Source: an uncultured Lachnospiraceae bacterium | Lineage (GTDB): Bacteria; Bacillota_A; Clostridia; Lachnospirales; Lachnospiraceae | Direction: 5' to 3' | Length of the DNA stretch: 17,483 nt | Assembly (NCBI GenBank): GCA_900553635.1 | Contig: USDU01000023.1 | Span: 1-17,483, forward strand | Shown here: positions 966-17,184 of the stretch, piece after piece | How positions within the stretch are numbered: the stretch's first letter is position 1 | How the letters are laid out: every line of letters starts with the position of its first letter | Position numbers and translations under genes: made by a program | The notes under the pieces: generated by a model | Seen by the model: the letters and a program-made list of their open reading frames with translations, nothing else | Told to the model about the DNA's origin: nothing | The model's database searches: none

Positions 966-997
966 AAAAGACACGGGAAATTTCCCGTGTCTTTTCT
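964..997. terminator. Perfect 34-bp palindrome, likely bidirectional terminator
   Basis: Bases 964-980 are an exact inverted copy of 981-997, with no mismatch. The GC-rich core is ACACGGG/CCCGTGT and the outer arms are AGAAAAG/CTTTTCT, so both strands end in a T-rich run. It covers the stop codon of the rightward chromate gene (963-965) and the stop codon of leftward larC (996-998). This is the expected position and form of a shared intrinsic terminator for two convergent operons. Confidence 0.88.
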
Positions 998-1832
998 ATT
1001 TCTCTTCGATCAGCATTGCCCGCAATATATTCGTATTCTGATACTCCCGCTTCCCCGCACCCATGCCGACTTTTTTCACGCAGTAAGCAGCCGGGATCTG
1101 TCCCTCGGATAATGCCGCAATCGCGGCGCCGGTCGGGGTAACCATTTCGCCCTCCTGCTCGATCTGGTGGAAGGTCAGGTGATGGGCCGCCGCAATCTCC
1201 AACACCGCCGGAACCGGCACTGGCAGTACGCCGTGCTGACAGCGGATGTGGCCGCAGCCCTCGGTCAATTCGGAAACGACCACTTTATCCACATTTAACT
1301 CGTCCAGGCAGGCTGCCGTACCCACAATATCCACAATGGAATCCACAGCACCCACCTCGTGGAAATGTACCTCGTCCACCGGATGACCATGGACCTTTGC
1401 CTCAGCCTCGGCTACGGTACGGAACATCTGCAAGGACAGAGCCTTGACACGGGGCTTCAGGTCAGATTCCAGGAGCATCTTTTCGATGTCGGCCCAGCTG
1501 CGATGGACATGGGGATGCATGTGGTCGTGAGTGTGAACCTCGTCATGCACGTGTTCATGGGAATGTACGTGTGCTTCGACATCACCATGCTCATGGGAGT
1601 TCTCATACGTATGCGCCGGAACCTCATGTTCCAGGAGCACATCAAAATCGCTGACCAGCAGTCCGCTCTTCATCACTTTTTTAATCTGTATATCATAGCC
1701 GTCCACCGGCAGCTTTGCAAGCTCCGCCCGCAGGTTCTCCTCGGTCGCGCCCAGATCCAGCAGGGCTGCCACGGTCATATCGCCGCTGATGCCGGAGCGG
1801 CACTCCAGATATAAGGTATTGCCATTACTCAT
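996..1832 (-). CDS. larC: LarC N-terminal domain protein (LarC1), nickel-pincer nucleotide maturation
   Basis: LarC inserts nickel into the pincer nucleotide made by LarB and LarE, giving the cofactor used by LarA-type racemases. The 278 residues start with the LarC signature YLECRSGISGDM (residues 8-19). A histidine-rich loop at about residues 69-110 holds 15 His and is probably a nickel-holding segment. The HFHEVGAVDSIVDIVG block (near 156-171) and a GAGKREYQNTNILRAM end follow. Full LarC proteins are about 400 residues long. This one stops where the N-terminal domain ends, and the CTP-binding C-terminal domain (LarC2) is missing. No other frame continues it, because the terminator and an opposite-strand gene follow at once. 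In Lactiplantibacillus plantarum the two parts are joined by programmed frameshifting, which the layout here excludes. The start ATG overlaps the larB stop by 8 bases, which suggests coupled translation. Confidence 0.88.
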   Translation of the reverse strand: MSNGNTLYLECRSGISGDMTVAALLDLGATEENLRAELAKLPVDGYDIQIKKVMKSGLLVSDFDVLLEHEVPAHTYENSHEHGDVEAHVHSHEHVHDEVHTHDHMHPHVHRSWADIEKMLLESDLKPRVKALSLQMFRTVAEAEAKVHGHPVDEVHFHEVGAVDSIVDIVGTAACLDELNVDKVVVSELTEGCGHIRCQHGVLPVPVPAVLEIAAAHHLTFHQIEQEGEMVTPTGAAIAALSEGQIPAAYCVKKVGMGAGKREYQNTNILRAMLIEEK

Positions 1833-2613
1833 CTTTTTCTTCCTCCACTACCTCTTCACTGAGATGTCTGCCACCGCAGGCCAGCCGGTTGATCTGGGTC
1901 GCCACATAAGCCGCTCCGTAACCATTGTCGATATTTACCGTGGTAATGCCGTTGGCACAGGAATTCAGCATGGTCAAAAGGGCCGACAGGCCGCCGAAGT
2001 TCGCGCCATATCCCACGGAAGTCGGCACTGCGATGACCGGCACATCCACCAGACCCGCCACCACTCCGGCCAGCGCGCCCTCCATACCGGCTACCGCAAT
2101 GACGCAGCTGGCGCCCTGGAAGGCCTTCATATTCGAAAGCAGGCGGTGGATTCCGGCCACGCCCACATCATAAAGCCGCGTCACATTGGTGCCGAAAAAT
2201 TCCGCCACCTGGGCCGCTTCCTCCGCCACCGGCACATCCGCCGTACCGCCGGTACAGACCACGATGCGGCCTATCCGCTTCCTGTCCCGCTTCTCCACCT
2301 TCAACACCCGGGATACCTCGTCCCAGACTGCCTCCGGAATTGCCTCTTTCACCGCCTCATACTGCTCCCGGCTGGCCCGGGTGCCCAGCACGTCGATGCC
2401 CTCCGCCGTCAGCGTCTGATAAATCTTTACCAGATGGGGCGTCGCCTTTCCCTGGCAATACACCACTTCCTCGAAGCCCTGCCGCACCTTCCGGTGATGA
2501 TCCAGCTTGGCGAAGCCCAGATCCTCGTAGGGGAGGTTCTTCAACTCGGCTTCGGCCTGTTCTATCGATATTTCATTATTTTTTATCTGAGTTAAAAGTT
2601 TTGTCACATCCAT
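1825..2613 (-). CDS. larB: LarB, nicotinic acid adenine dinucleotide carboxylase/hydrolase
   Basis: LarB carries out the first step of nickel-pincer nucleotide synthesis: it carboxylates the pyridinium ring of nicotinic acid adenine dinucleotide and hydrolyses the phosphoanhydride. At 262 residues the length is normal. The N-terminal half is the LarB-specific region. The C-terminal half is PurE-like, with CTGGTADVPVAEEAA near residues 120-134 and PTSVGYGANFGGLSALL near 197-213. SCANG follows, whose Cys219 matches the cysteine implicated in substrate binding, and then NIDNGYGAA. The gene has its own promoter at 2660-2688 and a GGGGGA ribosome site, and it overlaps larC by 8 bases. It is co-directional with, and just downstream of, the sugar cluster that contains a LarA-like gene. 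No LarE gene is in the window. Confidence 0.93.
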   Translation of the reverse strand: MDVTKLLTQIKNNEISIEQAEAELKNLPYEDLGFAKLDHHRKVRQGFEEVVYCQGKATPHLVKIYQTLTAEGIDVLGTRASREQYEAVKEAIPEAVWDEVSRVLKVEKRDRKRIGRIVVCTGGTADVPVAEEAAQVAEFFGTNVTRLYDVGVAGIHRLLSNMKAFQGASCVIAVAGMEGALAGVVAGLVDVPVIAVPTSVGYGANFGGLSALLTMLNSCANGITTVNIDNGYGAAYVATQINRLACGGRHLSEEVVEEEKDE

Positions 2614-2659: not shown

Positions 2660-2688
2660 ATTATAATTACTAAAAGCGATATTAACAA
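2660..2688 (-). promoter_or_regulatory. Sigma-70-type promoter for larB-larC1
   Basis: Read on the minus strand, TTGTTA (2683-2688) and a consensus TATAAT (2660-2665) are 17 bases apart. The -10 box lies 47 bases upstream of the larB start codon. The -35 box overlaps the stop codon of the upstream oxidoreductase gene (2682-2684). No terminator separates the two, so larBC can be transcribed both from here and by read-through from the sugar operon. Confidence 0.75.
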
Positions 2689-3737
2689 GCATGAATCTCA
2701 CAAAAAAATCTGTACGCCTCCTTACATGCCATTTCTAATTCACATGCTGAATGCTTTTCCTTCTGCATACTTTTTAACCAGTCCAATGCCTGCAAATAAT
2801 ACGTATCTTCTTCTGTATTATTTTCTTTTCGTATCACATAACCTTTTTTATCCAGAATACCCGCTTCACTTTTCTCCCATATTTGAAGCTCATCCGGCCT
2901 TTCCTGCGTATAATAACCCACCGCTCCGGACCCGACTATCTGTATTTCTTCATATGCAATACCTACTCTGCTACAATCCATGAGACACCGGCATCCGTCT
3001 TTCATTCGAACGATAAAAACAGCCGCATCATCTGTCGTAACTGCCCTTTGGACTCCCCCGTCGTCCACTCTTGTCTTTATAAAAGTGTCCGTCTCCGCTG
3101 TAATGTTCTCTATCTCTTCCGGCTGATAGCAACCCAGCGTCAGGAAATTATCCAGAATATGAGAACCAAAATCAATTCCTGCTCCCATTCCGCTTTTACT
3201 GCGATCCATTCTCCATTCAAAAGGCAGGCTTTCCTGGGCAAGGCGGTTTCCTCCCTTTCTCTGATAAAAGGTCCAAATTTTCCCAAACACGCCTTTTTTC
3301 ATCAACTCATATAGCGTTCGATTTTCCCAACTGTATCGATAATTAAATCCCACAATATTTCCTGCTCTGTTGCTTTGTGCCAGCTCTATCAGCCTTTTCA
3401 ATTCCTCCGCTGAGCCGACCATAGGTTTTTCACACAGTACTTTTTTGCCCTGCTGAATCGCTTTTATCGTATACTCTGCATGTGTCGCATTCGGAGAACA
3501 GATACAGACCGCATCTGTCCTATCCAAAAGCTCCTGATAATCGCTACATACCTGCGCCTCTAACCCATGTCTTTCTACAAAGGCTTTTCCCTGCTCACTT
3601 TTTCTTGTATATACGGCTGTTACCTGTAGCTCTGGAATTCTTTTAAATGCATTCACATGACTGTCCGCTATCGCGCAGGTGGTTCCTGTTCCTACGATTC
3701 CTACCCACGTCCTGCTTTTCCCTTCTAAAACACGCAT
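2682..3737 (-). CDS. Gfo/Idh/MocA-family NAD(P)-dependent oxidoreductase
   Basis: This is a soluble 351-residue sugar or polyol dehydrogenase/reductase. The Rossmann start is VGIVGTGTT (residues 12-20). The family EKP motif has catalytic Lys104 in LCEKPM, and the substrate domain carries the D-x-x-x-H pattern DFGSHILD with Asp189 and His193. Length is typical. The start codon sits inside the end of the glycyl radical enzyme gene (13-base overlap), so the two are translationally linked and probably share a pathway. The superfamily includes inositol and glucose-fructose dehydrogenases and also 1,5-anhydro-D-fructose reductase, which makes 1,5-anhydromannitol. Given two anhydrohexitol-lyase-like enzymes upstream, reduction of 1,5-anhydrofructose or its 6-phosphate is an attractive role. 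It is inferred from context, not from residues. Confidence 0.9.
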   Translation of the reverse strand: MRVLEGKSRTWVGIVGTGTTCAIADSHVNAFKRIPELQVTAVYTRKSEQGKAFVERHGLEAQVCSDYQELLDRTDAVCICSPNATHAEYTIKAIQQGKKVLCEKPMVGSAEELKRLIELAQSNRAGNIVGFNYRYSWENRTLYELMKKGVFGKIWTFYQRKGGNRLAQESLPFEWRMDRSKSGMGAGIDFGSHILDNFLTLGCYQPEEIENITAETDTFIKTRVDDGGVQRAVTTDDAAVFIVRMKDGCRCLMDCSRVGIAYEEIQIVGSGAVGYYTQERPDELQIWEKSEAGILDKKGYVIRKENNTEEDTYYLQALDWLKSMQKEKHSACELEMACKEAYRFFCEIHAC

Positions 3738-6061
3738 TCCGTCCTCCGGATAATCTCATTCTGCAGCTTTGTATCCAGCGACGTAAAATAAGCCGTGTAT
3801 CCAGCTACGCGAATCAGCAGATTTCGATAAGCCTCCGGATCCTTCTGAGCTGCCAGGAGTTCCGCCCTGTCTACCACATTAAACTGTACATGCTGAAGCT
3901 TCAAGGCCACAAAGCTGCGGAGAATACTATAAAAATGTTTTTTGTCTCTTTCTTCCCTGAAAATAGATGGAGAAAATTTCATATTCAACAGCGAGCCGTT
4001 GGAAATATCCTGATTGTCCAGTGCAGCTGCCGACTTCAGCATACTGGTCGGTCCCTGTCTGTCGCAGCCGCTGCTGGCTGAAATTCCTCCGTCTGCCAAC
4101 GGTTCCCCCGCTTTTCTTCCATCACAGCTCGCACCCACATTTTCTCCCATGGGAATATGGGAAGAAACTGTGTATAAGCCTGCATGAAAGCTTCCGCCCC
4201 TGGCATTTTTATATTTTTTAAGTTCTTGACAGAACGTCTGAATCCATTTGTTTGCCAGTTTGTCCGTCTCGGGAACATCATTTCCATATTTTGTTATTTC
4301 ATGTTTAATATAAAGTCTGAGGTTTTCATTCTTCCAGTTCTGCTGAAGTTCTTCCAGAAATTCTTTTCCTGTGACTTTCCCGGAATATACAAGCTCCTTT
4401 AAGACCTGAAACGAATCTATAAGATTCGCTGGCTGAACGAACTGCATTCCGGAAAAATTATATCTGGCTCCTCCGGCTGTGACATCCAGCCTCTTTTTCA
4501 TACATCCATCCACCACCGAAGACAGCAATCCTGTCGGCAGCAGTTCCTGATGCATATGATCGGTTATCCGATGAAATCTTACCATTTTTTCAACAAAGAA
4601 CTGTATCTGTTTTGCAAATGCCTTTTCCAGTTCTTCCCATGTCAGATAGCTGTCCAGTCCTCCATAATCCGGACCGATAACTTCTCCCGTCTGCAAATCC
4701 TTTCCGTGATTTAATGTCAGCTCCAACACCTTTACTGCGTTAAACATGGATGCATTACTCCAACCCAGGGTATTCCCGCAACCGGCTAGTTCTACACAGC
4801 CGACGATACCGTAGTTTACCGCATCCTCCCGATTCATCCCTGCCCCTTCCAATGTCGGAATAACCGCCTCGTCATTGAAAAACTGTGGAAGTCCTCCTCC
4901 CTTTGCGACGCACTCTGTACATGCCTCCAGAAATGCTCCACTGCTGTTCGCAGACAATCTGGCTGACAGATTCGGCTGTGGCAGATGCAATTCGCGCTGA
5001 GCCTCCAAAAATAAAAAACTCAGTTCATTTTCCGCGCTTTCCCCTTTCAGATTTTTCCCGCCAACTACCAGGTTGAAGCCAATGGGAAAACCGGCAAAAT
5101 ACTTCGCCTCTGTTCCGCTTCGCATACAGACAATCTGATTGAACTTCAGAAAAAAGCTCTCCGTCAGCTCCAGTGCATCCTCCCGGGTCAGGATCCCACT
5201 CTCAATATCCTGAAGATACCAGGGCAGCAAATACTGATCCAGCCTTCCCATGGAAAAAGAAGCAGCATTGGATTCCATCTGCAGACAGACCATCAGGAAC
5301 CATACCGATTGCAGCGCACTCCGGTAGCTTTTCGGAACTCCATCCTTCAGTTCTCTGCATATCCCTGCTATCTCCAGATATTCTTTCTGTTCATGACTGT
5401 CGATACTCTTGATACTCTTCTTTTCCGCAAGCAACGCATAGCGCTCCAAAAAGCGCTGAACTCCTTCCAGAGACAAAATTACACTTTGGTAAAAATCCGT
5501 TTGCTCCCGGGTCATATTTTCCTGCGTCAGACAACTTTTTGCTTCTTTCAAAAGGCCCGCAGGGCCTTTTGAAAGCCACAGGGGAATGTCCGGAATAATA
5601 TGCCCCTGAGCTCTTCCCTGCTGATTTGTTTTGATGACGCTGGAAAGCTTCTGATCTTCTCCTCCGGTTTCCTGCGCAATCTTATATTCCAGACATCTAT
5701 TTTTCCATTCCGGTAATAGGGTGTGTCGAATCCATTCTGCATCTTCACGTTTTACATAGAAGGGATCCTGTTTTCTGTCTGAAAGTCCATCCAACTCTTT
5801 TTCCAGCCACAGAATTCCACATTCCGGGAATACAACTCCACTCCTTACTCCGACTGTCCGGTTGCCTACTATCTGTTCTCCTTCTCCGATACTAATCTGA
5901 ATTTCATCAAAAGCCGCTGCCAGCGCACAGGCTCTGCGGATACAGGCAGGTTCCTCTGCCTTTTCCCTGTGTACACGAACGATAATTTTCGCCTGCTCAG
6001 TACTCAGAAAACGTTTTTCCTCCAGCATCTCTCTTTTCAGCCGTCCTATCCGCTCCCGCAT
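3725..6061 (-). CDS. Glycyl radical enzyme 2, PflD-like lyase/dehydratase
   Basis: This is a 778-residue glycyl radical enzyme of the pyruvate formate-lyase superfamily. The PFL-like barrel domain fills most of the chain. The thiyl-radical cysteine is Cys422 in NYGIVGCVELAGCG, followed two residues later by Glu424; C-x-E is the mark of the dehydratase/lyase branch rather than true PFL, which has two adjacent cysteines. The C-terminal radical loop is IRVAGYTAYF with Gly754. The region after GCVE (GNTLGWSNASMF) matches my recollection of E. coli PflD, reported to act on 1,5-anhydromannitol 6-phosphate; this assignment is tentative. The gene starts one base after the activase stop, with a GGAGG site in the activase end. 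Codons for residues near 163-172 form the strong hairpin at 5545-5575. Choline, hydroxyphenylacetate and isethionate lyases are less likely from the context. Confidence 0.9.
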   Translation of the reverse strand: MRERIGRLKREMLEEKRFLSTEQAKIIVRVHREKAEEPACIRRACALAAAFDEIQISIGEGEQIVGNRTVGVRSGVVFPECGILWLEKELDGLSDRKQDPFYVKREDAEWIRHTLLPEWKNRCLEYKIAQETGGEDQKLSSVIKTNQQGRAQGHIIPDIPLWLSKGPAGLLKEAKSCLTQENMTREQTDFYQSVILSLEGVQRFLERYALLAEKKSIKSIDSHEQKEYLEIAGICRELKDGVPKSYRSALQSVWFLMVCLQMESNAASFSMGRLDQYLLPWYLQDIESGILTREDALELTESFFLKFNQIVCMRSGTEAKYFAGFPIGFNLVVGGKNLKGESAENELSFLFLEAQRELHLPQPNLSARLSANSSGAFLEACTECVAKGGGLPQFFNDEAVIPTLEGAGMNREDAVNYGIVGCVELAGCGNTLGWSNASMFNAVKVLELTLNHGKDLQTGEVIGPDYGGLDSYLTWEELEKAFAKQIQFFVEKMVRFHRITDHMHQELLPTGLLSSVVDGCMKKRLDVTAGGARYNFSGMQFVQPANLIDSFQVLKELVYSGKVTGKEFLEELQQNWKNENLRLYIKHEITKYGNDVPETDKLANKWIQTFCQELKKYKNARGGSFHAGLYTVSSHIPMGENVGASCDGRKAGEPLADGGISASSGCDRQGPTSMLKSAAALDNQDISNGSLLNMKFSPSIFREERDKKHFYSILRSFVALKLQHVQFNVVDRAELLAAQKDPEAYRNLLIRVAGYTAYFTSLDTKLQNEIIRRTECVF
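5545..5575. repeat. Perfect 14-bp inverted repeat with 3-base loop inside the PflD-like gene
   Basis: Bases 5545-5558 (CTTTCAAAAGGCCC) are exactly complementary to 5562-5575, around a GCA loop. The element is in frame and encodes part of LSKGPAGLLKEA. No T-run follows on the coding (minus) strand, so it is not a standard terminator. It should form a very stable mRNA hairpin about 490 bases into the gene. Confidence 0.85.
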
Positions 6062-6062
6062 T

Positions 6063-6983
6063 TCAGCCTCCGATCTGCACCTTTTCTACATATCCTTCCA
6101 GCTCTTTTTTCAACCACTCCAGTTCTTCTTTCTTGAGTGATGGAACGCCCTGCATGGCGTATTCCATATGAAGATTCTCATACTTTTTTTCTCCAAACTG
6201 ATGGAAGGGAAGCAGGTGTGCTTCTTTTATTCCATACCTCCGTAACAGCTCTCCGAATCCCTTTCCTGCTTCCGGTCCGTCATTATATCCCGGTATGATC
6301 GGAATTCTCGCTATTACCCTTTTCCCGGAATTCACAGCAAGGGACAGATTTTTCAGGATAATCTCCTGTTCAAATCCTGTCCCTTCGACATGTTTTTCAG
6401 AATTGTAATGCTTTACATCAAATAAAAAGATATCCATACAGGTAAGCGCTTTGCGGAGATTTTCTTCCGGAATGCCTCCGGCCGTCTCACACGCTGTTGT
6501 GATACCCTGTTCTCTGACCCTGTCTGCCACTTCTTTTACGAAGTCTATCTGCATCAATGCTTCACCGCCAGAAAATGTAACGCCGCCACCCGAGCTTTCA
6601 TAAAAGACAGCGTCCTTCATGATTTCCTGAACCACTTCCTCTACAGACATACGTTTTCCCTCCAGAGAGAGAGCTTTTTCTCCGTCTCCCCTGCAGGCGT
6701 TTACACAGCTTCCGCAGCCCACACATTTTTCAGCGTCAAAAATCGGATATCCCGTTTCCGGGTCTGCATGGATTCCACCCTTCGGACAGGCCTGTATACA
6801 CCGAAGACACCGTATGCAATGTCTTCGATCCAGCATTAACTGACTTTTTTCCAACTGTGATTCCGGATTGGCGCACCACCTGCATTTTAAGGGGCATCCC
6901 TTTAAAAATACGGTAGTGCGGATTCCTGGTCCGTCATGTATACAAAACTTTTGAATATTAAATACCAATCCGGAATTTTTCAT
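6063..6983 (-). CDS. Glycyl radical enzyme activating enzyme (radical SAM)
   Basis: This 306-residue protein makes the glycyl radical on its partner enzyme by reductive cleavage of S-adenosylmethionine. The radical-SAM cluster motif C-x3-C-x2-C is Cys30, Cys34 and Cys37 in GCPLKCRWC, after the usual IHDGPGIRTTVFLKG lead-in. An inserted ferredoxin-like domain carries two further 4Fe-4S motifs, Cys56-59-62-66 and Cys87-90-93-97. This is typical of activases for non-PFL glycyl radical enzymes, while PFL activase itself lacks them. A SGGEALMQ motif follows (about residues 140-147). The ATG overlaps the aldolase stop by one base (TAATG) and the next glycyl radical enzyme starts one base after its stop. 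It is the only activase in the window, so it probably serves both enzymes. Confidence 0.94.
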   Translation of the reverse strand: MKNSGLVFNIQKFCIHDGPGIRTTVFLKGCPLKCRWCANPESQLEKSQLMLDRRHCIRCLRCIQACPKGGIHADPETGYPIFDAEKCVGCGSCVNACRGDGEKALSLEGKRMSVEEVVQEIMKDAVFYESSGGGVTFSGGEALMQIDFVKEVADRVREQGITTACETAGGIPEENLRKALTCMDIFLFDVKHYNSEKHVEGTGFEQEIILKNLSLAVNSGKRVIARIPIIPGYNDGPEAGKGFGELLRRYGIKEAHLLPFHQFGEKKYENLHMEYAMQGVPSLKKEELEWLKKELEGYVEKVQIGG

Positions 6984-7654
6984 TATTTCGCAGCAATCTC
7001 CTTTTGCAGTTTATCCCAGTCTGCCATAAACATCTCAATTCCCTGCGCGCTTAAAGGATGTTCAAAGCTCATCTTCAGAGGGCCATAAGGAATGGTCGCA
7101 TAGCCTGCGCCCGCCTTGGCCACCTGCTCCACATGATAGGGCTGCTTTAAGCTCGCGCACAACACCTCTGTCTTACAGTTCTGAATTCGGAAAATCTCGC
7201 AGATTTCTCTGACAACTCCAACTCCTTCCGCGCAGATATCGTCCAGTCTTCCCACAAACGGAGCTACGAAGGCTGCGCCTGCATTGGCTGCAAGAAGAGC
7301 CTGAATCGGGGTAAATACCAGCGTAACCGCCGTCCGGATTCCTTCTTTACTCAAGGCATGAACCGCCTTAATTCCTTCTCTGCACATGGGAATCTTCACC
7401 ACAATATTGGGAGACTTGGCAGCCAGTTCCCGGGCCTCCGCAATAATCTTATCGCTCTCCAGTGAAACTGCTTCCGCAAAAATCAACGTATCCGGATCAT
7501 CTGAAAAAATCTGAATAATCTCCTGCAAGGTCTCTTCAAATTCTCTTCCTTCCTTTGCAATCAAAGTCGGATTGGTCGTTGCTCCGCAGATTACGCCTGC
7601 GTCATACATTTCTTTAATCTGTTTTGTATTCGCTGTGTCAATTAAAATTCTCAT
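6983..7654 (-). CDS. TalC/FSA-family transaldolase or fructose-6-phosphate-type aldolase
   Basis: This 223-residue class I aldolase has the small-transaldolase (TalC/FSA) fold. It shows LIDTAN with Asp6, GATTNPTL (residues 24-31), and Schiff-base Lys87 in VVKIPM. Two residues used to separate the activities point to transaldolase: Glu61 in FAEAVS, where FSA has Gln59, and Phe133 in APFVGRLDD, where FSA has Tyr131. E. coli FsaA and FsaB genes sit beside glycyl radical enzyme genes in the same way, and their products cleave 1-deoxyfructose 6-phosphate to hydroxyacetone and glyceraldehyde 3-phosphate. Position between the YbiW-like enzyme (15 bases upstream) and the activase supports that role. 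The residues leave open a true transaldolase, including a sulfofructose-type one. The AGGAGG site overlaps the stop of the preceding gene. Confidence 0.88.
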   Translation of the reverse strand: MRILIDTANTKQIKEMYDAGVICGATTNPTLIAKEGREFEETLQEIIQIFSDDPDTLIFAEAVSLESDKIIAEARELAAKSPNIVVKIPMCREGIKAVHALSKEGIRTAVTLVFTPIQALLAANAGAAFVAPFVGRLDDICAEGVGVVREICEIFRIQNCKTEVLCASLKQPYHVEQVAKAGAGYATIPYGPLKMSFEHPLSAQGIEMFMADWDKLQKEIAAK

Positions 7655-7669
7655 CTCTCATTTCCTCCT

Positions 7670-10075
7670 CTACACGGTATGTTCTGTTCGTTCTATGATG
7701 TCATCCTGCGTCTGCCTGGACAGGGAATTGAAAAAGGCACTGTAGCCTGCTACCCGTACAATCAAGTCCCGATATTCCTCCGGGTTTTTCTGTGCGGCTC
7801 TCATGGTCTCTCTCGACACCACATTATACTGAACATGAAATCCTTTTAAACTGTCAAAAAAGGCACGGATAATACTAATCAGCTTTTCTGTATCTGCCTC
7901 ATTTTCCAGTACGGAATGATTCATTTTCTGATTCAGCAGAACGCCTCCTGTAATCAGATGTGTCGGCAGCTTCGAAATGGATTTAAATACGCTGGTAGGG
8001 CCATGCACATCGACCCCATGCTGCGGGGAACAGCCCTCCGCCAGAGGCGTTTTCGCTTTTCGTCCGTCCGGTGTCGCCATCGTCATGCCGCCCTGCGGGA
8101 CATTTGCCGAAATAGATGAGGTTCCTGCATAATATCCGCCGCCGATCGGCCCTCTCCCGAAACGCGTATTTTTATATTTTACGATTTCATTAATAAAACA
8201 ACTGTAAGCGTCTGCGACAACACGATCTACCTCTTCTTCGTCATTTCCGTATTTGGGAGCCTCCCGGATCAGAATCTGTCTTACCCGCTCTCCTTCTTCT
8301 CCCTCATAATTATGAAGCAGGGCTTCCCAGACCTCTTCTTTTGTCAACAGCTTTTTCTCAAATACACAGACCTTCAGTGCTTCCAGAGAATCTCCCAGAT
8401 TGGCGATTCCTACCTGAAGTCCGCTGATAAAATCGTATACCGCGCCGCCGGATTTCAGATCCAGTCCTCTTTTGACGCAGTCGTCTACCAGTACGGAGCA
8501 AAGAACATCCGGCGTCTCCTGTTCAATCACCGTGTCTGCGCAGTTATCCAGTACAACGCTCATTCTGGCGATTTTTTCTGCTGTATCCTTCCATTCAGCA
8601 AACAACTCCTCGTAGCTCTCTATCTCCAGAAACGGCTTACACTCGGGAAGTACACGCTCTCCACTTGTCAGATCAACGCCGCCATTCATCATAGCCAGCA
8701 GGAACCTCGGGAGATTTGAGAATGACATTCCGGTACACCGATATCCCCATTTACCAGGTACTGCCACTTCCACACATCCGATGGCGCTGTAGTTCCGCGC
8801 GTCTTCAAGCGCTACTCCCTTCTCCACAAAGGAGGGAATGATAATTTCGTCGTTATTAAATGCAGGCATTCCAAAGCCCAGTTTTATAACCTGCATACAT
8901 TCCCGCATAAAATCCTGTGGAAGGTTCTTATGATACCGCACTGTCAGGTTGGGCTGCGGAAGATGCATCCGCGCTACACTTTTCAGAATCAGCCAGGACA
9001 CAGGGTTGGTAGCATCCTTTCCTTCCGTGGTCTGCCCTCCGACCGTCACATTCTGATACATGGGACTTCCTGCTGAAAATTGTGTGTGCGCCCAACTCCT
9101 GACTTTATTAATGGTAAAGGTTTTCAGCCACAGGTTTTCAAGCAGCTCGCAGGCGCTTTCCTCTGTTACCCTTCCCTCTTCCAAATCCTTTTTATAAAAC
9201 GGATATAAATACTGATCCAGTCTTCCATAGGAAAGGGAATGCCCATTGGATTCTATCTGTAAAATCAGATGCACCAGCCAAATACTCTGCAGCGCTTCCC
9301 ACATGGTTTCTGCCGGATACTCCGGAACTCTGGAGCAGATGCGCGCAATCTCTTCCAGCTCTTTTTTTCTCTTTTCGTCTCTTTCTTTTTCAGCTTCCTG
9401 CTTTGCCAGCTCCGAAAAACGATGAGCAAACGCAATAGAACTGTCTATCATAATCAGCGCGGCATCGTAGAAATATCGTTTTTCCAGATTCCTGTAATCT
9501 GTCAGATCCAACTTTTCACGGTACTCTTCCACCAACGTCCGGAAATGCCGAAGACCCAAACGTATCAACTCGTCATAATTTACAGCCAGATGCGCATCAC
9601 CGGATGTGATAGAGCCTTCCATTTTTATAATTCCAAGATCATATATTTTCCGGTATTCCGAAGGAAGGGCCGCAAGGCCCTTATCCTTCAGTGTATTTCT
9701 GTCCCAGTATTTCCCCAGCTCGCGGATCTGGGCTTTTTCCTCTTCCCGTACATGGAAAACGTCTCCGTCACGTTTTTCAAAGGTATCGAGTTCCTCTACC
9801 ACCCAGTCCATACAATATTCCGGAAATAGCGGAGCTGCCCGGTTCAGAGACGCCTGATTTCCCACAAGCAACGTCTGTTTTTCAATGAAAATACTCATAT
9901 GTTCCAAAACATTCGCCACACAGTTCGCTCTCTGCAGGATCACCGGCTCATCTCTGTGCTGCCTGTATGCCTGTGTATACAATCTTCCTCGTTCCGCGCA
10001 AATATAGGATGGCGTATTAAGCAGTTCTTCTCTGAATTCCTGTATTCTCTGCGTCGATTCTCCAAAATAACCCAT
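7670..10075 (-). CDS. Glycyl radical enzyme 1, YbiW-like lyase/dehydratase
   Basis: This is an 801-residue glycyl radical enzyme. Cys434 in NYSAIGCVEVAVPGKWG is the thiyl-radical residue, with Glu436 as the C-x-E partner base. The radical loop RVAGYSAFF near the C-terminus carries Gly777. The core GRLDQYLYP, LPQPNLTVR and NNDEIIIPS blocks are shared with the paralogue at 3725-6061. The stretch after GCVE (PGKWGYRCTGMS) differs from that paralogue and resembles what I recall of E. coli YbiW, reported to open 1,5-anhydroglucitol 6-phosphate. Substrate is inferred from that resemblance and from the adjacent aldolase. The start has a GAGGAG ribosome site and lies 28 bases after the lipoprotein gene. 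It is not PFL, which has a Cys-Cys pair, and no microcompartment genes of the choline or propanediol type are nearby. Confidence 0.92.
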   Translation of the reverse strand: MGYFGESTQRIQEFREELLNTPSYICAERGRLYTQAYRQHRDEPVILQRANCVANVLEHMSIFIEKQTLLVGNQASLNRAAPLFPEYCMDWVVEELDTFEKRDGDVFHVREEEKAQIRELGKYWDRNTLKDKGLAALPSEYRKIYDLGIIKMEGSITSGDAHLAVNYDELIRLGLRHFRTLVEEYREKLDLTDYRNLEKRYFYDAALIMIDSSIAFAHRFSELAKQEAEKERDEKRKKELEEIARICSRVPEYPAETMWEALQSIWLVHLILQIESNGHSLSYGRLDQYLYPFYKKDLEEGRVTEESACELLENLWLKTFTINKVRSWAHTQFSAGSPMYQNVTVGGQTTEGKDATNPVSWLILKSVARMHLPQPNLTVRYHKNLPQDFMRECMQVIKLGFGMPAFNNDEIIIPSFVEKGVALEDARNYSAIGCVEVAVPGKWGYRCTGMSFSNLPRFLLAMMNGGVDLTSGERVLPECKPFLEIESYEELFAEWKDTAEKIARMSVVLDNCADTVIEQETPDVLCSVLVDDCVKRGLDLKSGGAVYDFISGLQVGIANLGDSLEALKVCVFEKKLLTKEEVWEALLHNYEGEEGERVRQILIREAPKYGNDEEEVDRVVADAYSCFINEIVKYKNTRFGRGPIGGGYYAGTSSISANVPQGGMTMATPDGRKAKTPLAEGCSPQHGVDVHGPTSVFKSISKLPTHLITGGVLLNQKMNHSVLENEADTEKLISIIRAFFDSLKGFHVQYNVVSRETMRAAQKNPEEYRDLIVRVAGYSAFFNSLSRQTQDDIIERTEHTV
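9661..9688. repeat. GC-rich inverted repeat inside the YbiW-like gene
   Basis: AAGGGCC (9665-9671) and GGCCCTT (9676-9682) flank a GCAA loop. The outer AAGG/CCTT (9661-9664 and 9685-9688) extend the stem past a two-base bulge. It lies in the coding sequence near residue 132 and has no following T-run on the coding strand. It is weaker than the hairpin in the paralogous gene at 5545-5575 but has a similar GGGCC/GGCCC core. Confidence 0.6.
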
Positions 10076-10103: not shown

Positions 10104-11186
10104 TTACTTATAAAGTCCCTCTGCCGCTTCTGTCATCAAATCAAACATTACATAGTCGTCCACATTTGTGCCTTCCGGCGCGGTTCCGTTTGTAATCATT
10201 TGATTCAACTGTGTCTGATAGTAGCCCTTAATAGTGCCATCCTGTACGGCTGCGTATAATTCTTCGCCGGTCAGCCAGTTTCCATCATGATCCTGTGCCT
10301 CAACAGTCGCCACATCCGCTGCAAGCTGTGTCGCAATCCACTCAGATACCTGTGTCAGATTTTCTTCTTTTGCACCGTAATCCATAGCTTTCATCAAAGC
10401 TCTTGTGAATCGAACTAGGACGTCGTGATTCTCATCCGCCCATTTTTCCATGACTACGAAGCTGGACAATGCCACGGCCTTATCGATATAATCCATCGGA
10501 GAACACAGCTTCTTCGCGTCATCCAATTCATTCAGAATCTGCCAAGTATTCGGGGACCAGGTACTGCATGCATCCAGGGTTCCGGATACCATAGCGGTAA
10601 CCATATTGCTGGTATCCATGTCATATGCATTGATATCAGCCATGGTCAGCCCTGCATCCTCAAGCGCTCTCTGAAGCATAGTCTCAGATGAGGTTCCTGA
10701 GGAATAGCCTACTGTCTTACCCTTTAAATCCTGGAGCGAATTCACTCCGGAGGAGGTTCTTCCGATTACCATTTCCGCATCTCCGATATGGGAATAGCAG
10801 AAAATCTTACAATTTCCGTTGGCCGCCAGCTTGTGCGCGCCATCGCCGATGTAAGCCAGGTCAATGGATCCGGATTCCATGGACGCGATTTCAGTGGGGC
10901 CGTCCGCAAACTCATAAAAGGTTACATCCAGGCCTTCCTCATCAAAGTATCCTCCGTTCTTTGCCGACATCAGTACCCACATGGAAGCATAGTTCGGCAT
11001 ATAAGCTACGTTCAGAGATACCCTTTCTACTGTTTCCACTGCGGTATCCTCTGCTGTTGTGTCCTCTGCCGCAGTGGTTTCCTCCCCCTTGGAATCTGCA
11101 GCCGTCTCCGTTCCTTTTCCGGAACCACATGCCGCCAGGCTGAACGCCATAGTTAACGCTAGCAACAAACTCATCACCTTTTTCAT
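10104..11186 (-). CDS. ABC transporter substrate-binding lipoprotein, NitT/TauT (NMT1) family
   Basis: This is the extracytoplasmic binding protein of the adjacent importer, 360 residues long. The frame is open further upstream, but the start at 11186 is chosen for two reasons: AGGAGAAGG precedes it and a lipoprotein signal follows directly, with a lysine start, a hydrophobic core and the lipobox LAAC giving lipidated Cys20. An acidic Thr/Glu/Ala-rich linker (about residues 28-55) leads into the SsuA/TauA-like domain. That domain shows NVAYMPNYASMWVLMSAKNGGYFDEEGL, split over residues 59-86, and GSIDLAYIGDG. Related proteins bind taurine, alkanesulfonates, nitrate or pyrimidine precursors. 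Binding sites of this family are not readable by eye, so the substrate is unknown. A sugar-related ligand is suggested only by the operon. Confidence 0.88.
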   Translation of the reverse strand: MKKVMSLLLALTMAFSLAACGSGKGTETAADSKGEETTAAEDTTAEDTAVETVERVSLNVAYMPNYASMWVLMSAKNGGYFDEEGLDVTFYEFADGPTEIASMESGSIDLAYIGDGAHKLAANGNCKIFCYSHIGDAEMVIGRTSSGVNSLQDLKGKTVGYSSGTSSETMLQRALEDAGLTMADINAYDMDTSNMVTAMVSGTLDACSTWSPNTWQILNELDDAKKLCSPMDYIDKAVALSSFVVMEKWADENHDVLVRFTRALMKAMDYGAKEENLTQVSEWIATQLAADVATVEAQDHDGNWLTGEELYAAVQDGTIKGYYQTQLNQMITNGTAPEGTNVDDYVMFDLMTEAAEGLYK

Positions 11187-11232
11187 AGTTTCCTTCTCCT
11201 TTTTACTTTTTTTTCCTGCTTCCGCAGGTAAA

Positions 11233-12024
11233 TTACTTCGGTATTTCCAGGTATTCCTGATATACTCTGGACCAGATAAAGTTCTTAAGCTCAATAAAGG
11301 TTGGATCCATGCGCGTCTCCTGTGTTCGCGGATAAGGAATATCAATCTCCACAATCTCCTTGATACGTCCCGGTCTCGCACTCATGATAACCACTCTCTG
11401 AGCCAGAATAATTGCTTCTTCCACATCATGGGTGATAAAGAAACAGGTTTTTCTTTCCTCCTGCCATGTCTTTAACAGCTCTGACTGAAGCTGCGTTCGT
11501 GTCTGGGCATCCAACGCTCCAAAGGGCTCATCCATAAGAAGTACCTCCGGATTGACCGCATAAGCTCTCGCAATAGCTACCCTCTGCTTCATTCCTCCTG
11601 ACAGCTCTTTCGGATATGCATTGGTAAACTTTTCCAAATCCACCATACGGATGTACTTCATCGCGATTTCTTCAATTTCATCCTCCGGAAGATTTTTCAG
11701 CCTCAGACCAAACTCTACATTTTTCTTCACTGTCAGCCAGGGAAATAACGCATACTGCTGGAACACGACTCCACGCTCTACTCCGGTTCCCTGAACCTTT
11801 TTTCCATCCACAAAGACATTTCCTGAGGTCGGCTCCATCAATCCTGCGATAATATTCAACAATGTCGATTTTCCGCATCCGGAAGGTCCTACCACGCAGA
11901 CAAACTCATTATCGAGAATATCCATATTGATGCCGTTCAGCGCAACCATTTCACCGCTGCGTCCATTGAACACCTTCCGGACACCGTCGATCTTAACTTT
12001 TATATTTCTCTCTTCTCCTGCCAT
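11233..12024 (-). CDS. ABC transporter ATP-binding protein, NitT/TauT (SsuB/TauB) type
   Basis: This 263-residue ATPase powers the importer. The motifs are in order: Walker A GPSGCGKST (residues 46-54), a Q-loop in VVFQQYALFPW, the signature LSGGMKQR, Walker B VLLMDEPFGALD and the switch histidine in FFITHDVEEA. The ALFPW and MKQR variants are common in the nitrate/sulfonate/taurine importer class. It overlaps the permease gene by 25 bases and is followed after 46 bases by the lipoprotein gene, so the three form one transport cassette. No extra regulatory C-terminal domain is present. Confidence 0.93.
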   Translation of the reverse strand: MAGEERNIKVKIDGVRKVFNGRSGEMVALNGINMDILDNEFVCVVGPSGCGKSTLLNIIAGLMEPTSGNVFVDGKKVQGTGVERGVVFQQYALFPWLTVKKNVEFGLRLKNLPEDEIEEIAMKYIRMVDLEKFTNAYPKELSGGMKQRVAIARAYAVNPEVLLMDEPFGALDAQTRTQLQSELLKTWQEERKTCFFITHDVEEAIILAQRVVIMSARPGRIKEIVEIDIPYPRTQETRMDPTFIELKNFIWSRVYQEYLEIPK

Positions 12025-12788
12025 GAAGTCAGCTTCCTTTCAAAATATTTCAGTACTTTTTCTGCCAGCATTCCGATTACGCCAACTATGATAATGTAGA
12101 GCAGCATCGGCGTTGTCTCATAGGAATTGGCCAGGGCCTTAATTCTCATTCCCAGTCCGCAGATAGCTCCTGTGGACTCAGCTGCAATCAGTGTTGTCAG
12201 CGCTGTGGAAATACCCAGGCGGATTGCCGTTACAATGAAAGGCGTCGTCGCGGGAAATACAACCTTTCTCAGAATTACGCTATCGTTCGCTCCCAGTACT
12301 CTTGCCGCTTTTATCAGCGTCTCGTCCACATTTACAACGCCCTGAAAAATCGTGATTGTCATAACCAGAAATGTGGAAAGACAAATAACGATGACCTGCG
12401 GCTTTCTTCCGACTCCTGCAGAAAGTACTACCAATGGTACATAGGCCAGCGGCGGGATATTTCTTACAAACTGAATCCACGGTTCCACGATGAACCTTAT
12501 CGGACGATACCAAGCCATCAGAAAGGCTACCGGTACCGCCAGGAGAAAGCCAAATCCAAATCCGCTGATTGCGGATATCAAGCTGCTTACAATATCCTGA
12601 ATCAGTACGCCTCTCCTATGCATGGTCGCTGCTGACGCAAAAACCTCTGTCAGTGGTTTAAAGGTCCGCCCTGTCTTAGGACTCATGGATAACAGCTGCC
12701 ATACGACAATCGCTGTTAAGAGAGAGATAAGCAGCCATGCCCATTTGGGTATTTTGCCTACCCAATCCATTCCCTTTTTGTTTTTCAT
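12000..12788 (-). CDS. ABC transporter permease, NitT/TauT (SsuC/TauC) type
   Basis: This 262-residue inner-membrane subunit has about six hydrophobic segments, the first at residues 16-34 and others around 68-90, 100-122, 130-150, 187-205 and 227-245. The cytoplasmic EAA loop that docks the ATPase is recognisable as IKAARVLGANDSVILRKVVF in the second half. Sequence style and length match SsuC/TauC permeases. It is the first gene of the transport cassette and has an AAGGAGGAGG ribosome site 5 bases before ATG. The 111-bp AT-rich region before it is the only sizeable gap in the cluster and may hold a promoter. Confidence 0.92.
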   Translation of the reverse strand: MKNKKGMDWVGKIPKWAWLLISLLTAIVVWQLLSMSPKTGRTFKPLTEVFASAATMHRRGVLIQDIVSSLISAISGFGFGFLLAVPVAFLMAWYRPIRFIVEPWIQFVRNIPPLAYVPLVVLSAGVGRKPQVIVICLSTFLVMTITIFQGVVNVDETLIKAARVLGANDSVILRKVVFPATTPFIVTAIRLGISTALTTLIAAESTGAICGLGMRIKALANSYETTPMLLYIIIVGVIGMLAEKVLKYFERKLTSWQEKREI

Positions 12789-12899: not shown

Positions 12900-14036
12900 T
12901 TAAAAAACCTTTTTCCCTTTGACAAATGTTGATTGTATCCGGTACTTTTCATCCACAATTACAAAATCGGCATCCCGTTTTTCTTTTAAATATCCCTTTT
13001 TCCGTTCCAGTCCCAAAAGGCACGCCGGATTTTCTGTAAACAATGGTATTATCCTTTCCGGATTTTCCCCCGTAAATCTTATCAGGTTCTGAAATGCCTT
13101 CGCAGCCGTCAAAACGCTTCCGGCTCTTGTCCCGTCCGACATCAGCTTTGCGTCTCCGTCCTTTACGATTACATCATTGACGCCCAGCTTATACTGTCCA
13201 TCCGGGAAACCTGTTGCCATAATGGAATCCGCCACCGCCACAACCCTGTTCCAGCTCTTTGTTTTCAGCAGCAGACGTACAGATCCAGGATGCAGATGAA
13301 TTCCGTCACAGATTGCTTCACAGTAAATATCAGACTCCAGGGCCGCTCCCATAATTGCCGGCTCATGCTGATGAAACAACCGCATGGCGTTAAAGGTATG
13401 CGTGCATGCTCCGGCTCCCTGACGAATTGCCTGCATCGCCTGATCATAGGTCGCGTCAGAATGTCCAATCGCCACCTGTATTCCCATTTTTCGAATTTCC
13501 GGAATAGCCGCAAGTACTCCTGCACGCTCCGGTGAAACGGTGATATATCGGATTTCTCCTTCCGCCGCCTGCTGATATCTTTTCAGAAGCTCCAGATCCA
13601 TATCTCTTAACAGATGGGGCGGCATCGCTCCCTTATACTTTTCCCCGAGAAACGGACCCTCCAGATGAATTCCCATCAGCTCCGCTCCCCAATGAGGAAG
13701 TTCTTTCCATCTGCGATATTCATGGATACATTTCAGCGTCTGCTCCTCTGTATCGGTAAGAATCGAACACAGCCATCCTGTTACTCCCTGCGTTGCCAGA
13801 AATCTACCGATCTTCTCGAAGCCTTCCGCATCAGCAGCATTTACATCTACGCCTACTGCGCCATGCATGTGAATTTCAACAAACCCCGGTATAACGCGAA
13901 AGCCCTGGATTTCCAGTATTTCTTCCTCCATTTCTGGCAGGTCTGTTCCAATTTCAAGGATCTTTCCCTCCATAATCCGAATGTCTTTTTTTCGAAATTC
14001 CCCATCCTGATATATCAAACCGTTTTTTAAAAGCAT
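12900..14036 (-). CDS. nagA: N-acetylglucosamine-6-phosphate deacetylase-like amidohydrolase
   Basis: This cytoplasmic 378-residue TIM-barrel amidohydrolase removes acetate from N-acetyl-hexosamine 6-phosphates. All expected motifs are present: the H-x-H pair His56/His58 in VEIHMHGA, metal ligand Glu126 in HLEGPF, His192 in IGHSDA, and His213 in THTFNAM. The substrate motif CDGIHLHP has His247, and the catalytic aspartate is Asp270 in VAVADS. Length is normal. It follows the NagB-like gene by 16 bases with a GGGGGAAG ribosome site. The active site is intact, so an N-acetylated sugar phosphate is a likely substrate of this cluster. N-acetylgalactosamine 6-phosphate or another N-acetyl sugar phosphate is possible as well. 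Confidence 0.93.
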   Translation of the reverse strand: MLLKNGLIYQDGEFRKKDIRIMEGKILEIGTDLPEMEEEILEIQGFRVIPGFVEIHMHGAVGVDVNAADAEGFEKIGRFLATQGVTGWLCSILTDTEEQTLKCIHEYRRWKELPHWGAELMGIHLEGPFLGEKYKGAMPPHLLRDMDLELLKRYQQAAEGEIRYITVSPERAGVLAAIPEIRKMGIQVAIGHSDATYDQAMQAIRQGAGACTHTFNAMRLFHQHEPAIMGAALESDIYCEAICDGIHLHPGSVRLLLKTKSWNRVVAVADSIMATGFPDGQYKLGVNDVIVKDGDAKLMSDGTRAGSVLTAAKAFQNLIRFTGENPERIIPLFTENPACLLGLERKKGYLKEKRDADFVIVDEKYRIQSTFVKGKKVF

Positions 14037-14052: not shown

Positions 14053-14868
14053 CTACAACTGCGCTACTTCCTCTGTAAACCGGATTGAAATGTCTGCATG
14101 ATTCTGAAGTAAGGTTACAGGAAATTCAGTGGTCGCTTCTCCATATGCCGCCCTCCGAACGACAGCTTTATGCCAGTTCCGGAAACATCCAAGCCGAACC
14201 TTCCGGGAGCGGATGATTTCATACATTCCCACTGTCATACAGTAATTTGGCATGTCCTCCAGGGCCCCGTTAAAATCTCCGATGGCGTTGGCGGCCCTTG
14301 TCTCCTGTGAGATGTGAAGAAGCCGCGTCTTCTGTTCCACAAACGCTTCTTTCGTAAGCGTCTGATCTGCCTCGTTAAATGCCAGATGTCCATTCAGGCC
14401 GATTCCTCCGAAGCATACGTCTGCCCATCCCAGCTTTTCCAGCATCCTCGTCACCTTTTCCGGATCCTTTGGATCCGGAAAAACTCTCTGTTCCTCTGGC
14501 ATTACCAGCTCCGGATCTATCTTGTCATATACCGTTCGGTACATAAATCCCCGGAAACTCAGTGGATGACTCATATCAATCCATTCTTTTTCATCTGTCA
14601 GATACTCATCCATATTGAAAAACCATACATTTTTAAGATTTATCCGCTTTTGATTTACAATTTCCACAAAATAGGGATACTGGCCTACCGGCCCCACCGG
14701 GCAGATAAAAACTGTTTTTTCTCCCTTTTTGTTATGCTCTTCTATCTCCTCCGCCATTTCCTGCGCCATCTGCCGGAATACCTCTTCCTTTGTCTCATAA
14801 CATTCCAGCCGAAGCTTCGGCGACTCCAGGAGTTGTTCCTTTGTGTATGTATAATAGGAATGGATCAT
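14053..14868 (-). CDS. NagB-family glucosamine-6-phosphate deaminase/isomerase-like protein
   Basis: This is a 271-residue protein of the NagB sugar-phosphate isomerase family. The usual phosphate loop is altered to CPVGPVGQYP (residues 56-65). Asp87 in FFNMDEYL matches the catalytic Asp72 of E. coli NagB. The second catalytic block is GGIGLNGHLAFNE: His161 and Glu166 are kept, but the residue matching Asp141 of the deaminase triad is Asn159. Later, a conserved lysine appears in NWHKAVV. True NagB converts glucosamine 6-phosphate to fructose 6-phosphate and ammonia. With Asn in the triad this protein may be a weak deaminase, an isomerase only, or act on another amino sugar phosphate. It lies between the LarA-like gene and nagA with gaps of 15-16 bases. 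A strong hairpin is embedded at 14456-14482. Confidence 0.85.
   Translation of the reverse strand: MIHSYYTYTKEQLLESPKLRLECYETKEEVFRQMAQEMAEEIEEHNKKGEKTVFICPVGPVGQYPYFVEIVNQKRINLKNVWFFNMDEYLTDEKEWIDMSHPLSFRGFMYRTVYDKIDPELVMPEEQRVFPDPKDPEKVTRMLEKLGWADVCFGGIGLNGHLAFNEADQTLTKEAFVEQKTRLLHISQETRAANAIGDFNGALEDMPNYCMTVGMYEIIRSRKVRLGCFRNWHKAVVRRAAYGEATTEFPVTLLQNHADISIRFTEEVAQL
14456..14482. repeat. Perfect 12-bp inverted repeat with 3-base loop inside the NagB-like gene
   Basis: TTTTCCGGATCC (14456-14467) is exactly complementary to 14471-14482 around a TTT loop. It encodes the local FPDPKDPEK repeat-like stretch (near residues 130-138). On the coding strand it is followed by GGTGACG, not a T-run, so it is not an ordinary terminator. 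It is the second perfect short-loop hairpin found inside a gene of this cluster. Confidence 0.82.
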
Positions 14869-16347: not shown

Positions 16348-17184
16348 CTACTCTCCCATGTATTTGTCAATAATTTCCAGGTATTCTTCCGGATAAAATC
16401 CGATCTCTCCCTGGAACCGTGTCAGTGCAATCAGTCCACCGTCCAGCTCTGCCACCGATGATACCATGGCTGCATTCTCTTTTTTCAGACCGCCTCCGTA
16501 CACAACATCCACATCTCCCATGACCTTTTTTATGTATTTTCCAATCATTTCCATATATTCTTTTCCCGGAGGTGTCTTGCCTGGTCCGATTGCCCAGACC
16601 GGTTCATAGCCGATAGTCACTTTTGTCAAATCCGCTCCTGCCAATCCTGTCGTCAGCTGCTTTTCCAGCACCTCCTGCCAGTTTTCCTGCTCTTCTGCCC
16701 GCTCGCCAATGCAGTACAATACCTCCAGACCAGCTCTCTGGGCTGCCAGAATTTCCTGATTCAGAATACGGTTTACAGCTTCTGCATCTGTACAGCCTGC
16801 TTCCTTCAGGACTCCTGCTTTATCCATCCGTTCCTCGCAGTGTCCTATCAGCACGGCTTTACATCCCAGTCCAACCATTGCGTTTCCCGTCCTGTTGCCC
16901 GTAAAAGCGCCAAAATTTTTACCTTTTTCTGTATCCGCTCTGTAAATACTCTGACATCCAAGCTTAACCATGCTGTCCGGCTTCAGCGCCGCACTGGCCG
17001 TCAATATATGCGCCTCCGGGAAAAAGATTACAAATTCCACATCTTTTCCTCTGTATTTTTCCAGAGGTTCCTGAATATGATGAATAATATAGCTTCCCCA
17101 CTCCGTGACTGGCGCAATTGCATTCACTCCTGCTTTTTCAGTAGGAATGTCGAATCTCTTCAGATTCAAAAAAATGTGTTTCAT
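16348..17184 (-). CDS. Divergent triose-phosphate-isomerase-like protein
   Basis: This is a 278-residue TIM-barrel isomerase. The catalytic set is kept: Asn7 and Lys9 in FLNLKRFD (the N-x-K of GNWKMN), His115 in IGHCEER, and Glu194 in GYEPVWAIGPGKT. The rest departs from housekeeping TpiA. The N-terminal motif is changed, an extended VNAIAPVTEWG segment follows, the phosphate loop reads YGGGLKKENAA, and the end (IALTRFQGEIGF) is unusual. It is also longer than the usual 250. Similar diverged TPI relatives isomerise tetrulose phosphates in erythritol pathways, so the substrate may not be a triose phosphate. The ATG overlaps the PFK stop by 4 bases (ATGA), and an AAAGGAGG site lies in the PFK end. 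The LarA-like gene starts 12 bases after its stop. Confidence 0.85.
   Translation of the reverse strand: MKHIFLNLKRFDIPTEKAGVNAIAPVTEWGSYIIHHIQEPLEKYRGKDVEFVIFFPEAHILTASAALKPDSMVKLGCQSIYRADTEKGKNFGAFTGNRTGNAMVGLGCKAVLIGHCEERMDKAGVLKEAGCTDAEAVNRILNQEILAAQRAGLEVLYCIGERAEEQENWQEVLEKQLTTGLAGADLTKVTIGYEPVWAIGPGKTPPGKEYMEMIGKYIKKVMGDVDVVYGGGLKKENAAMVSSVAELDGGLIALTRFQGEIGFYPEEYLEIIDKYMGE

Follow-up and report, generated by a model that had tools for sequence, protein, structure and literature searches.

What do two oxygen-sensitive glycyl radical enzymes (GREs) do at the tail of a run of genes that resemble upper glycolysis? This question is raised by a stretch of 17,483 nucleotides from an uncultured Lachnospiraceae bacterium (contig USDU01000023.1; the whole stretch is called the window here), for which the original prediction had proposed a pathway for two 1,5-anhydro sugars. 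We suggest that the operon specifies an upper glycolysis parallel to the usual one, acting on an imported hexose or hexosamine that would bear at C6, instead of phosphate, a group termed X, most likely a sulfonate or a sulfate ester. On this suggestion our belief and our doubt are evenly balanced. What is read from the sequence is the gene content, the conserved operon, the changed 6-phosphate residues in relatives of triosephosphate isomerase (TIM'), N-acetylglucosamine-6-phosphate deacetylase (NagA'), glucosamine-6-phosphate deaminase (NagB') and, in related operons, phosphoglucose isomerase (PGI'), the signature of the aldolase-family protein TalC, and the pocket of the first GRE (GRE1). 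We infer the substrate, the nature of X, all of the reactions and the roles of the second GRE (GRE2), of the nickel enzyme LarA' and of the Gfo/Idh oxidoreductase.

Gene content and conservation of the operon

The minus strand carries a single long gene run, in this order:

17186..17483, minus strand: PFK', C-terminal part of a phosphofructokinase-family protein, truncated at the window edge (59.8% identity over 92 amino acids to the PFK of locus L013)
16348..17184, minus strand: TIM', triosephosphate isomerase relative (PF00121; YGGS changed to YGGG and VGGASL to IALTRF)
14884..16335, minus strand: LarA', nickel-pincer enzyme, His-to-Asn subfamily (PF09861; best PDB matches 9q3j, 855 bits, and 9q2u, 796 bits)
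14053..14868, minus strand: NagB', glucosamine-6-phosphate deaminase relative (TIGR00502, 104.7 bits, below the cut-off of 236.9; altered phosphate loop, R172 changed to D)
12900..14036, minus strand: NagA', N-acetylglucosamine-6-phosphate deacetylase relative (TIGR00221, 281 bits, above cut-off; R227 changed to H)
12000..12788, minus strand: ABC permease, taurine/sulfonate type (all profile matches below cut-offs)
11233..12024, minus strand: ABC ATPase, taurine/nitrate/sulfonate type (best matches shown below cut-offs)
10104..11189, minus strand: ABC substrate-binding lipoprotein, SsuA/NMT1 type (TIGR01728, 137.4 bits, below the cut-off of 163.5; PF09084)
7670..10075, minus strand: GRE1, YbiW-like glycyl radical enzyme (TIGR01774, 950.7 bits; 48.9% identity to E. 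coli YbiW; placed by tree)
6983..7654, minus strand: TalC, transaldolase/fructose-6-phosphate aldolase (FSA) family with a transaldolase-type signature, E59/F131/G133 (TIGR00875, 244.2 bits, slightly below the cut-off of 245.95)
6063..6983, minus strand: radical-SAM glycyl-radical activase, the sole one in the window (TIGR02494, 337.3 bits)
3725..6061, minus strand: GRE2, PflD-side glycyl radical enzyme with an N447-type pocket (TIGR01774, 753.3 bits; 41.6% identity to E. coli PflD; placed by tree)
2682..3737, minus strand: Gfo/Idh/MocA oxidoreductase, specificity unassigned (PF01408, PF22725)
1825..2613, minus strand: LarB, nickel-pincer cofactor synthesis (NF033503, 290 bits)
996..1832, minus strand: LarC, first part only, 278 amino acids (TIGR00299, 205 bits; 437 amino acids in L001 and L002)

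The GRE cassette is the tail of a longer operon with PFK, TIM, LarA, NagB, NagA and a sulfonate-type ABC importer. All five members of the cassette described in the original prediction (two GREs, one activase, a TalC-type enzyme and a Gfo/Idh protein in overlapping or nearly touching genes) are in place, with spacings from GRE1 through TalC, activase and GRE2 to Gfo/Idh of 15, -1, 1 and -13 bases, and their combination with LarA, NagA and an ABC importer is borne out by profile matches; TIM, NagB, LarB, LarC and the PFK C terminus at the window edge are additions to that list. The other gaps in the operon are at most 43 bases, except for 111 between NagA' and the permease and 68 between Gfo/Idh and LarB. 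The start of the binding protein at 11189 is our choice, the open reading frame as listed beginning at 11381 with GTG; its PDB matches are weak (at most 52.6 bits), among them proteins that bind nitrate, sulfonate, pyrimidine or taurine. A plus-strand chromate-transporter gene comes after LarC, and searches of the window with Rfam at the gathering threshold and for tRNAs were empty.

The gene order is shared by two loci found in one scan with a single query sequence, L001 (Clostridia bacterium isolate B90_2) and L002 (Bacterium 1XD21-13), and the order of the GRE cassette is therefore not due to chance. In both loci Gfo/Idh and LarB are separated by a TSUP/TauE gene, tested with Pfam in L001, and by a LarE-like gene recognized by eye; PFK and a divergent LacI gene are found upstream. 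A close relative of the aldolase FBA' was not found in genomes G001 or G002 (best 46% identity over part).

The upper part of the operon is more widespread. Among 299 genomes of the family of G001, taken as Lachnospiraceae from the names seen, 23 contain close TIM' homologues (at least 251 bits; other TIMs score at most 123.4 bits among the matches listed) and 22 have TIM-LarA operons without GREs within ~20 kb. Outside the window we mapped 24 operons, those of the 23 TIM' genomes (G001 included) and of G002, covering ~20 kb around 22 of them; the gene counts are lower bounds set by identity thresholds and limited stretches, and one each of FBA', PGI', epimerase and TSUP was Pfam-checked. LarA' is present in all 24, PFK' in 18, NagA', NagB' and FBA' in 13 each, an SsuABC-type ATPase and TSUP/TauE in 11 each, an aldose-1-epimerase-like gene in six and PGI' in four, while GRE1, GRE2 and TalC are found in the same two only. 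Beyond the family, LarA' was detected at E <=1e-100 in eight of 398 genomes of the phylum, seven of them new. In four of these seven (G652, G558, G605 and G535) PFK, FBA and TIM relatives lie near LarA' together with a TSUP-like gene (two recognized by weak similarity, two by eye from the sequence); G333 has TIM without PFK or FBA, G687 has PFK and FBA without TIM, and G441 has none of these.

Several features of related loci are recorded here in their own right. The distant LarA' operons L154, L155 and L158 (LarA identity 47-48%) have PFK, FBA and TIM relatives, GntR-like and TSUP-like genes and an adjoining sugar-type ABC importer, some of them named by eye; in L156 a 3-hydroxyisobutyrate-dehydrogenase-type gene (10604-11512) occupies the expected place of TIM', between FBA and LarA'. 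A DUF4838 protein (Pfam), possibly a glycan-acting enzyme, lies within the TIM'/LarA' operon of L062 (8547-10406), with a look-alike beside another such operon at L047 8929. Proteins of ~640 amino acids similar to the operon binding protein, possible ligand sensors, are found near two-component genes (L050 6785, L058 2897).

Changed phosphate sites and a proposed pathway

By comparison of residues, TIM', NagA', NagB' and PGI' seem to have lost the usual 6-phosphate contacts, and because this loss extends across all four enzymes we suggest that C6 bears something other than phosphate. The comparison was made with E. coli proteins and same-genome paralogues (TIM with E. coli and seven of many canonical TIMs, PGI' with E. 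coli only, NagA leaving out weak matches below 50 bits), and the roles of the residues are those described for the E. coli or related enzymes. All four retain their catalytic residues, in TIM' the catalytic Lys, His95 and Glu. All 25 TIM' rows, that of the window among them, read YGGG and IAL, as does none of the eight comparison rows, seven of which have VGGASL; the phosphate-binding Ser211 and Gly-Gly are gone from all 25. H227 is found in 13/13 operon NagA' rows, whereas the 17 other copies have Arg (13), Ile (one) or His (three), the last in G121, G151 and G255, which are TIM' genomes without NagA' in the mapped stretch; two of these copies lie on the TIM' contig. In NagB', residue 172 is D or E in 16 of 16 rows (14 genes) and the phosphate loop is changed, as against R172 in 10 and Gly in three of 13 others. 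All four PGI' have AKNFET where E. coli has SKTFTT. FBA' retains the loops that we take to be its C1-phosphate site.

By motifs read by eye, LarA' has Asn for His174, the lysine of the nickel-pincer nucleotide (NPN) and Lys for Arg75; the Asn motif recurs in all printed rows except L064, where the search pattern had no match. From its size we take the best PDB match, 9q3j, to be LarA_Bw; 9q2u is a LarA-like protein.

Both GREs have large-scoring PFL-like and Gly_radical Pfam matches and C-x-E and RVAGY motifs in their translations. In a tree of 66 rows GRE1 falls in a 12-row module clade (support 100) nested in the YbiW group, the 32-row set containing GRE1 and E. coli YbiW (support 100), and its best PDB matches are 6xs4, 8id7 and 8yjn (YbiW and a close relative). 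GRE2, best matched by 8yjo (PflD), also has a module clade (99), which joins the PflD side with support 99 on a short branch. E. coli YbiW, PflD and glycerol dehydratase (GDH) have long branches, whose joins the program flags with a warning. The pocket-lining positions, and their numbers, are those of GDH. GRE1 has the letters of YbiW at 164, 281, 282, 339, 433, 435, 444-448, 640, 642 and 644, and because it keeps most of this pocket, the simplest guess for its reaction is that it opens the ring of a 1,5-anhydro sugar or of a similar one. The D at 447 and the S at 281 of PflD are N and A in GRE2, and the H of PflD at 446 is S, a change that D447-type PflD-side relatives share. The alignment and phylogeny proposed in the original prediction therefore uphold a YbiW-like GRE1 and the PflD side for GRE2, but not the pocket of PflD itself, and we regard GRE2 as presumably a second, re-tooled PflD-side lyase.

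A sister clade of GRE2, likewise N447, includes a protein of G255 encoded next to a YbiW-like GRE, a homologue of FSA and an ABC importer whose binding protein is of the NMT1 type. A search with GRE2 (397 genomes, E <=1e-240) gave matches in at least seven genomes; this search and one other scored usually two candidates per genome, so that copies may be missed, and in G002 another paralogue was listed rather than the operon GRE2. The YbiW-like and the PflD-like gene, at separate loci in E. coli, here share a single activase. Their proximity is not unique: such pairs lie within ~10 kb in G255, G733 and G015, there with separate activases. In loci L166, L203 and L204 of G219 and G255, a YbiW-like GRE, an FSA homologue and an ABC importer are combined, an unusual EMTK loop is present and no kinase is visible; that both genomes also carry the TIM' operon counts in favor of the proposed pathway. 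GRE1 has A/Q for the S/K of E. coli YbiW at 328/331, in a loop that varies also in YbiW relatives read as PTS- (phosphotransferase system) or kinase-linked. We dropped both the interpretation of this change as lost phosphate binding and a rule by which ABC-linked and PTS-linked GREs differ, since Q occurs in L193 beside a presumed PTS gene and A/L in L202 and L206 beside presumed ROK kinases.

TalC is E59/F131/G133 in the window, L001 and L002, whereas FsaA and FsaB are Q59/Y131/N133, as are seven of nine FSA homologues beside other GREs (the others are Q, Y, H in G219 and E, Y, H in G255). We take E59 and F131 to mark transaldolases and Q59 and Y131 to mark FSA. TalC retains the Schiff-base Lys85 as well as D6, T26 and N28, but with this signature a clean FSA split, as formerly proposed, is doubtful. 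In L062 a different TalC-family gene stands at the usual place of PFK', beside TIM'. The further proposal that the oxidoreductase links the two GREs through 1,5-anhydrofructose is unsupported: the Gfo/Idh protein matches 1,5-anhydrofructose reductase at 49.8 bits and its best solved match at 88.8 bits. The names YbiW/PflD and FSA should not be transferred to GRE2 and TalC here.

Combining these data, we propose that the SsuABC-type importer would take up the sugar, that NagA' would remove the acetyl group and that NagB' would deaminate and isomerize the product to 6-X-fructose. A three-carbon X-aldehyde would then arise through transaldolase action of TalC, through PFK' with an aldolase, or through both, and TIM' and LarA' would convert the C3-X product. 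GRE1 may open a YbiW-like 1,5-anhydro ring or close analogue to give a 1-deoxyketose, and cleavage of the latter by TalC could feed the C3-X pool as well. Sulfonate or sulfate is favored as X because of the SsuA-type importer and the TSUP genes in the mapped operons; a C6-carboxylate (uronic acid) substrate was set aside by reasoning only.

Weighing the readings

Several observations pull against a sulfonated or sulfated substrate handled in this way. The acidic residues that replace phosphate ligands, D172 in NagB' and E in PGI', are ill-suited to an anionic X, and for this reason we keep a free hydroxyl in play. Both NagA' and NagB' are missing from eight of the 24 mapped stretches, and 13 have no ABC ATPase and 13 no TSUP; in the window neither LarE nor, among the open reading frames assigned, TSUP was seen. 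With LarC short as well, the route to NPN may be incomplete here, or some of its genes may lie elsewhere. PFK' is retained in the GRE form of the operon despite the loss of FBA'. GRE1 departs from YbiW at GDH positions 461 and 717, GRE2 of L002 (10001-12178) has only 725 amino acids with ~50 pocket-region residues gone, including the GDH Ser282 position, and we know of no natural 6-X 1,5-anhydrohexitol. PFK' was withdrawn as phosphate-site evidence, which slightly lowered our confidence in the preferred reading and in its extension given below. Its active-site residues lie beyond the window edge and were read in relatives, among which the L013 copy matches PF00365. All 18 module rows have H162 and L/I249, and R162 is found in each of the 16 rows chosen for comparison (E. 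coli plus 15 of 33 PFK matches), but neither R162 nor H249 is present in nine further PFK-family rows of these genomes, namely seven long paralogues (L095-L098, L100, L104, L105) and two PFP-like proteins (L108, L109); the PFK relatives of L059 and L061 (43% identity) likewise have H162 and L249, as in the module.

If X were a plain hydroxyl, free N-acetylglucosamine (GlcNAc), glucose and 1,5-anhydrohexitols would be used without 6-phosphorylation, PFK' would make fructose 1-phosphate and TIM' would act on glyceraldehyde. The changed phosphate sites of TIM', NagA', NagB' and PGI' would be accounted for together with the acidic replacements, and the aldose-1-epimerase-like gene and the existence of natural 1,5-anhydro sugars for the GREs would fit; the sulfonate-type importer and TSUP would be unexplained and all 25 TIM' rows have an Arg or a His in the loop, and we consider this scheme quite unlikely. 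With hydrogen as X, 6-deoxyhexoses such as quinovosamine would give dihydroxyacetone phosphate and lactaldehyde, and LarA' would act on a compound at the level of lactaldehyde. Such a role is in line with the hydrophobic change from GG to AL in TIM' and with the chemistry of the LarA family on lactate (PMC11770544), but LarA_Sp of the His-to-Asn subfamily gave no lactate racemization according to PMC12611868, and importer and TSUP would again lack a function; we regard this scheme as very improbable.

The route put forward in the original prediction keeps the phosphate: GRE1 and GRE2 would open 1,5-anhydroglucitol and 1,5-anhydromannitol 6-phosphates, TalC would split 1-deoxyfructose 6-phosphate and a kinase encoded elsewhere would phosphorylate the sugars. 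The tree positions of both enzymes, the mostly equal pocket letters of GRE1 and the paired GREs of G255, G733 and G015 are what remains in its favor, but in the operon neither a PTS nor an ordinary sugar kinase was seen (a PFK relative only), the GRE2 pocket differs at 447 and 281, TalC is of the transaldolase type, and NagA', NagB', TIM' and LarA' would be left unexplained, so that we judge the route unlikely. Alternatively, the cassette may have been inserted into the LarA'/TIM' operon, two unrelated pathways then sharing no intermediate. Its lack in 22 of the 24 mapped stretches and the separate YbiW-like GRE, FSA and ABC importer clusters in G219 and G255 are consistent with this idea, which the tight packing with overlaps, the same order in L001 and L002 with no close FBA' there, and the TalC-family gene beside TIM' in L062 make rather improbable. 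The reading that we prefer to these four is a parallel glycolysis on a sugar with a non-phosphate group at C6, for which sulfonate or sulfate is the favored candidate.

Relation to known pathways

Extending the preferred reading, gut anaerobes may have a full 6-phosphate-independent upper glycolysis (NagA', NagB', PGI', PFK', FBA' or TalC, TIM' and LarA') for 6-sulfated or 6-sulfonated GlcNAc and glucose, for example mucin GlcNAc-6-sulfate, with a nickel-pincer enzyme acting on a C3-sulfur aldehyde; in the lineage of the window, two GREs and a transaldolase would take the place of the aldolase step, bringing radical chemistry to a 6-modified sugar. We offer this extension tentatively and hold it to be doubtful. 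Among the open-licence PubMed Central papers listed in our searches, none was seen to describe GREs in an operon of this kind or a glycolysis of GlcNAc-6-sulfate. The model offers a class of substrates that can be tried on a LarA subfamily of known structure, and it suggests that a sizeable share of one anaerobe family (23 of 299 genomes sampled) has an unrecognized relative of upper glycolysis, which annotation would take for the ordinary pathway. Should X be sulfate or sulfonate, gut sulfur chemistry would be connected with host mucin or with sulfur sugars of the diet.

For the His-to-Asn LarA subfamily (LarA_Bw and LarA_Sp), the passages available from PMC12611868 describe the proteins, note glycolytic neighbors and leave the substrate open. 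The neighborhoods agree with those described here, this LarA lying beside PGI, PFK, TIM, FBA, NagB and an aldose-epimerase gene, whereas changed phosphate sites, a sulfonate link and GREs are not mentioned in those passages. E. coli YbiW and PflD are assigned to a radical-mediated 1,5-anhydrohexitol pathway by Ma et al., as related in PMC12441222. The operon shares with that pathway, as far as described there, a YbiW-side and a PflD-side GRE plus a TalC/FSA-family enzyme; it differs in having an ABC importer in place of the PTS, a single activase, a re-tooled GRE2 pocket and a transaldolase-type TalC, and in its union with altered glycolytic genes and LarA'.

Neither a sulfoquinovose isomerase nor a sulfolactaldehyde reductase was seen among the window genes. 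Sulfoglycolysis (PMC11659671) has sulfo-EMP, sulfo-TAL and sulfo-TK forms. As in these pathways, a 6-modified sugar would be handled in a glycolysis-like manner, with kinase plus aldolase or transaldolase variants and an exporter of the sulfur product, here TSUP in relatives; different are the entry through NagA' and NagB', the PfkA-type kinase, TIM', LarA' and the GREs. Judged by their sequences, the genes of the window and of its relatives would fit either a transaldolase-type or a kinase/aldolase cleavage of a 6-modified ketose.

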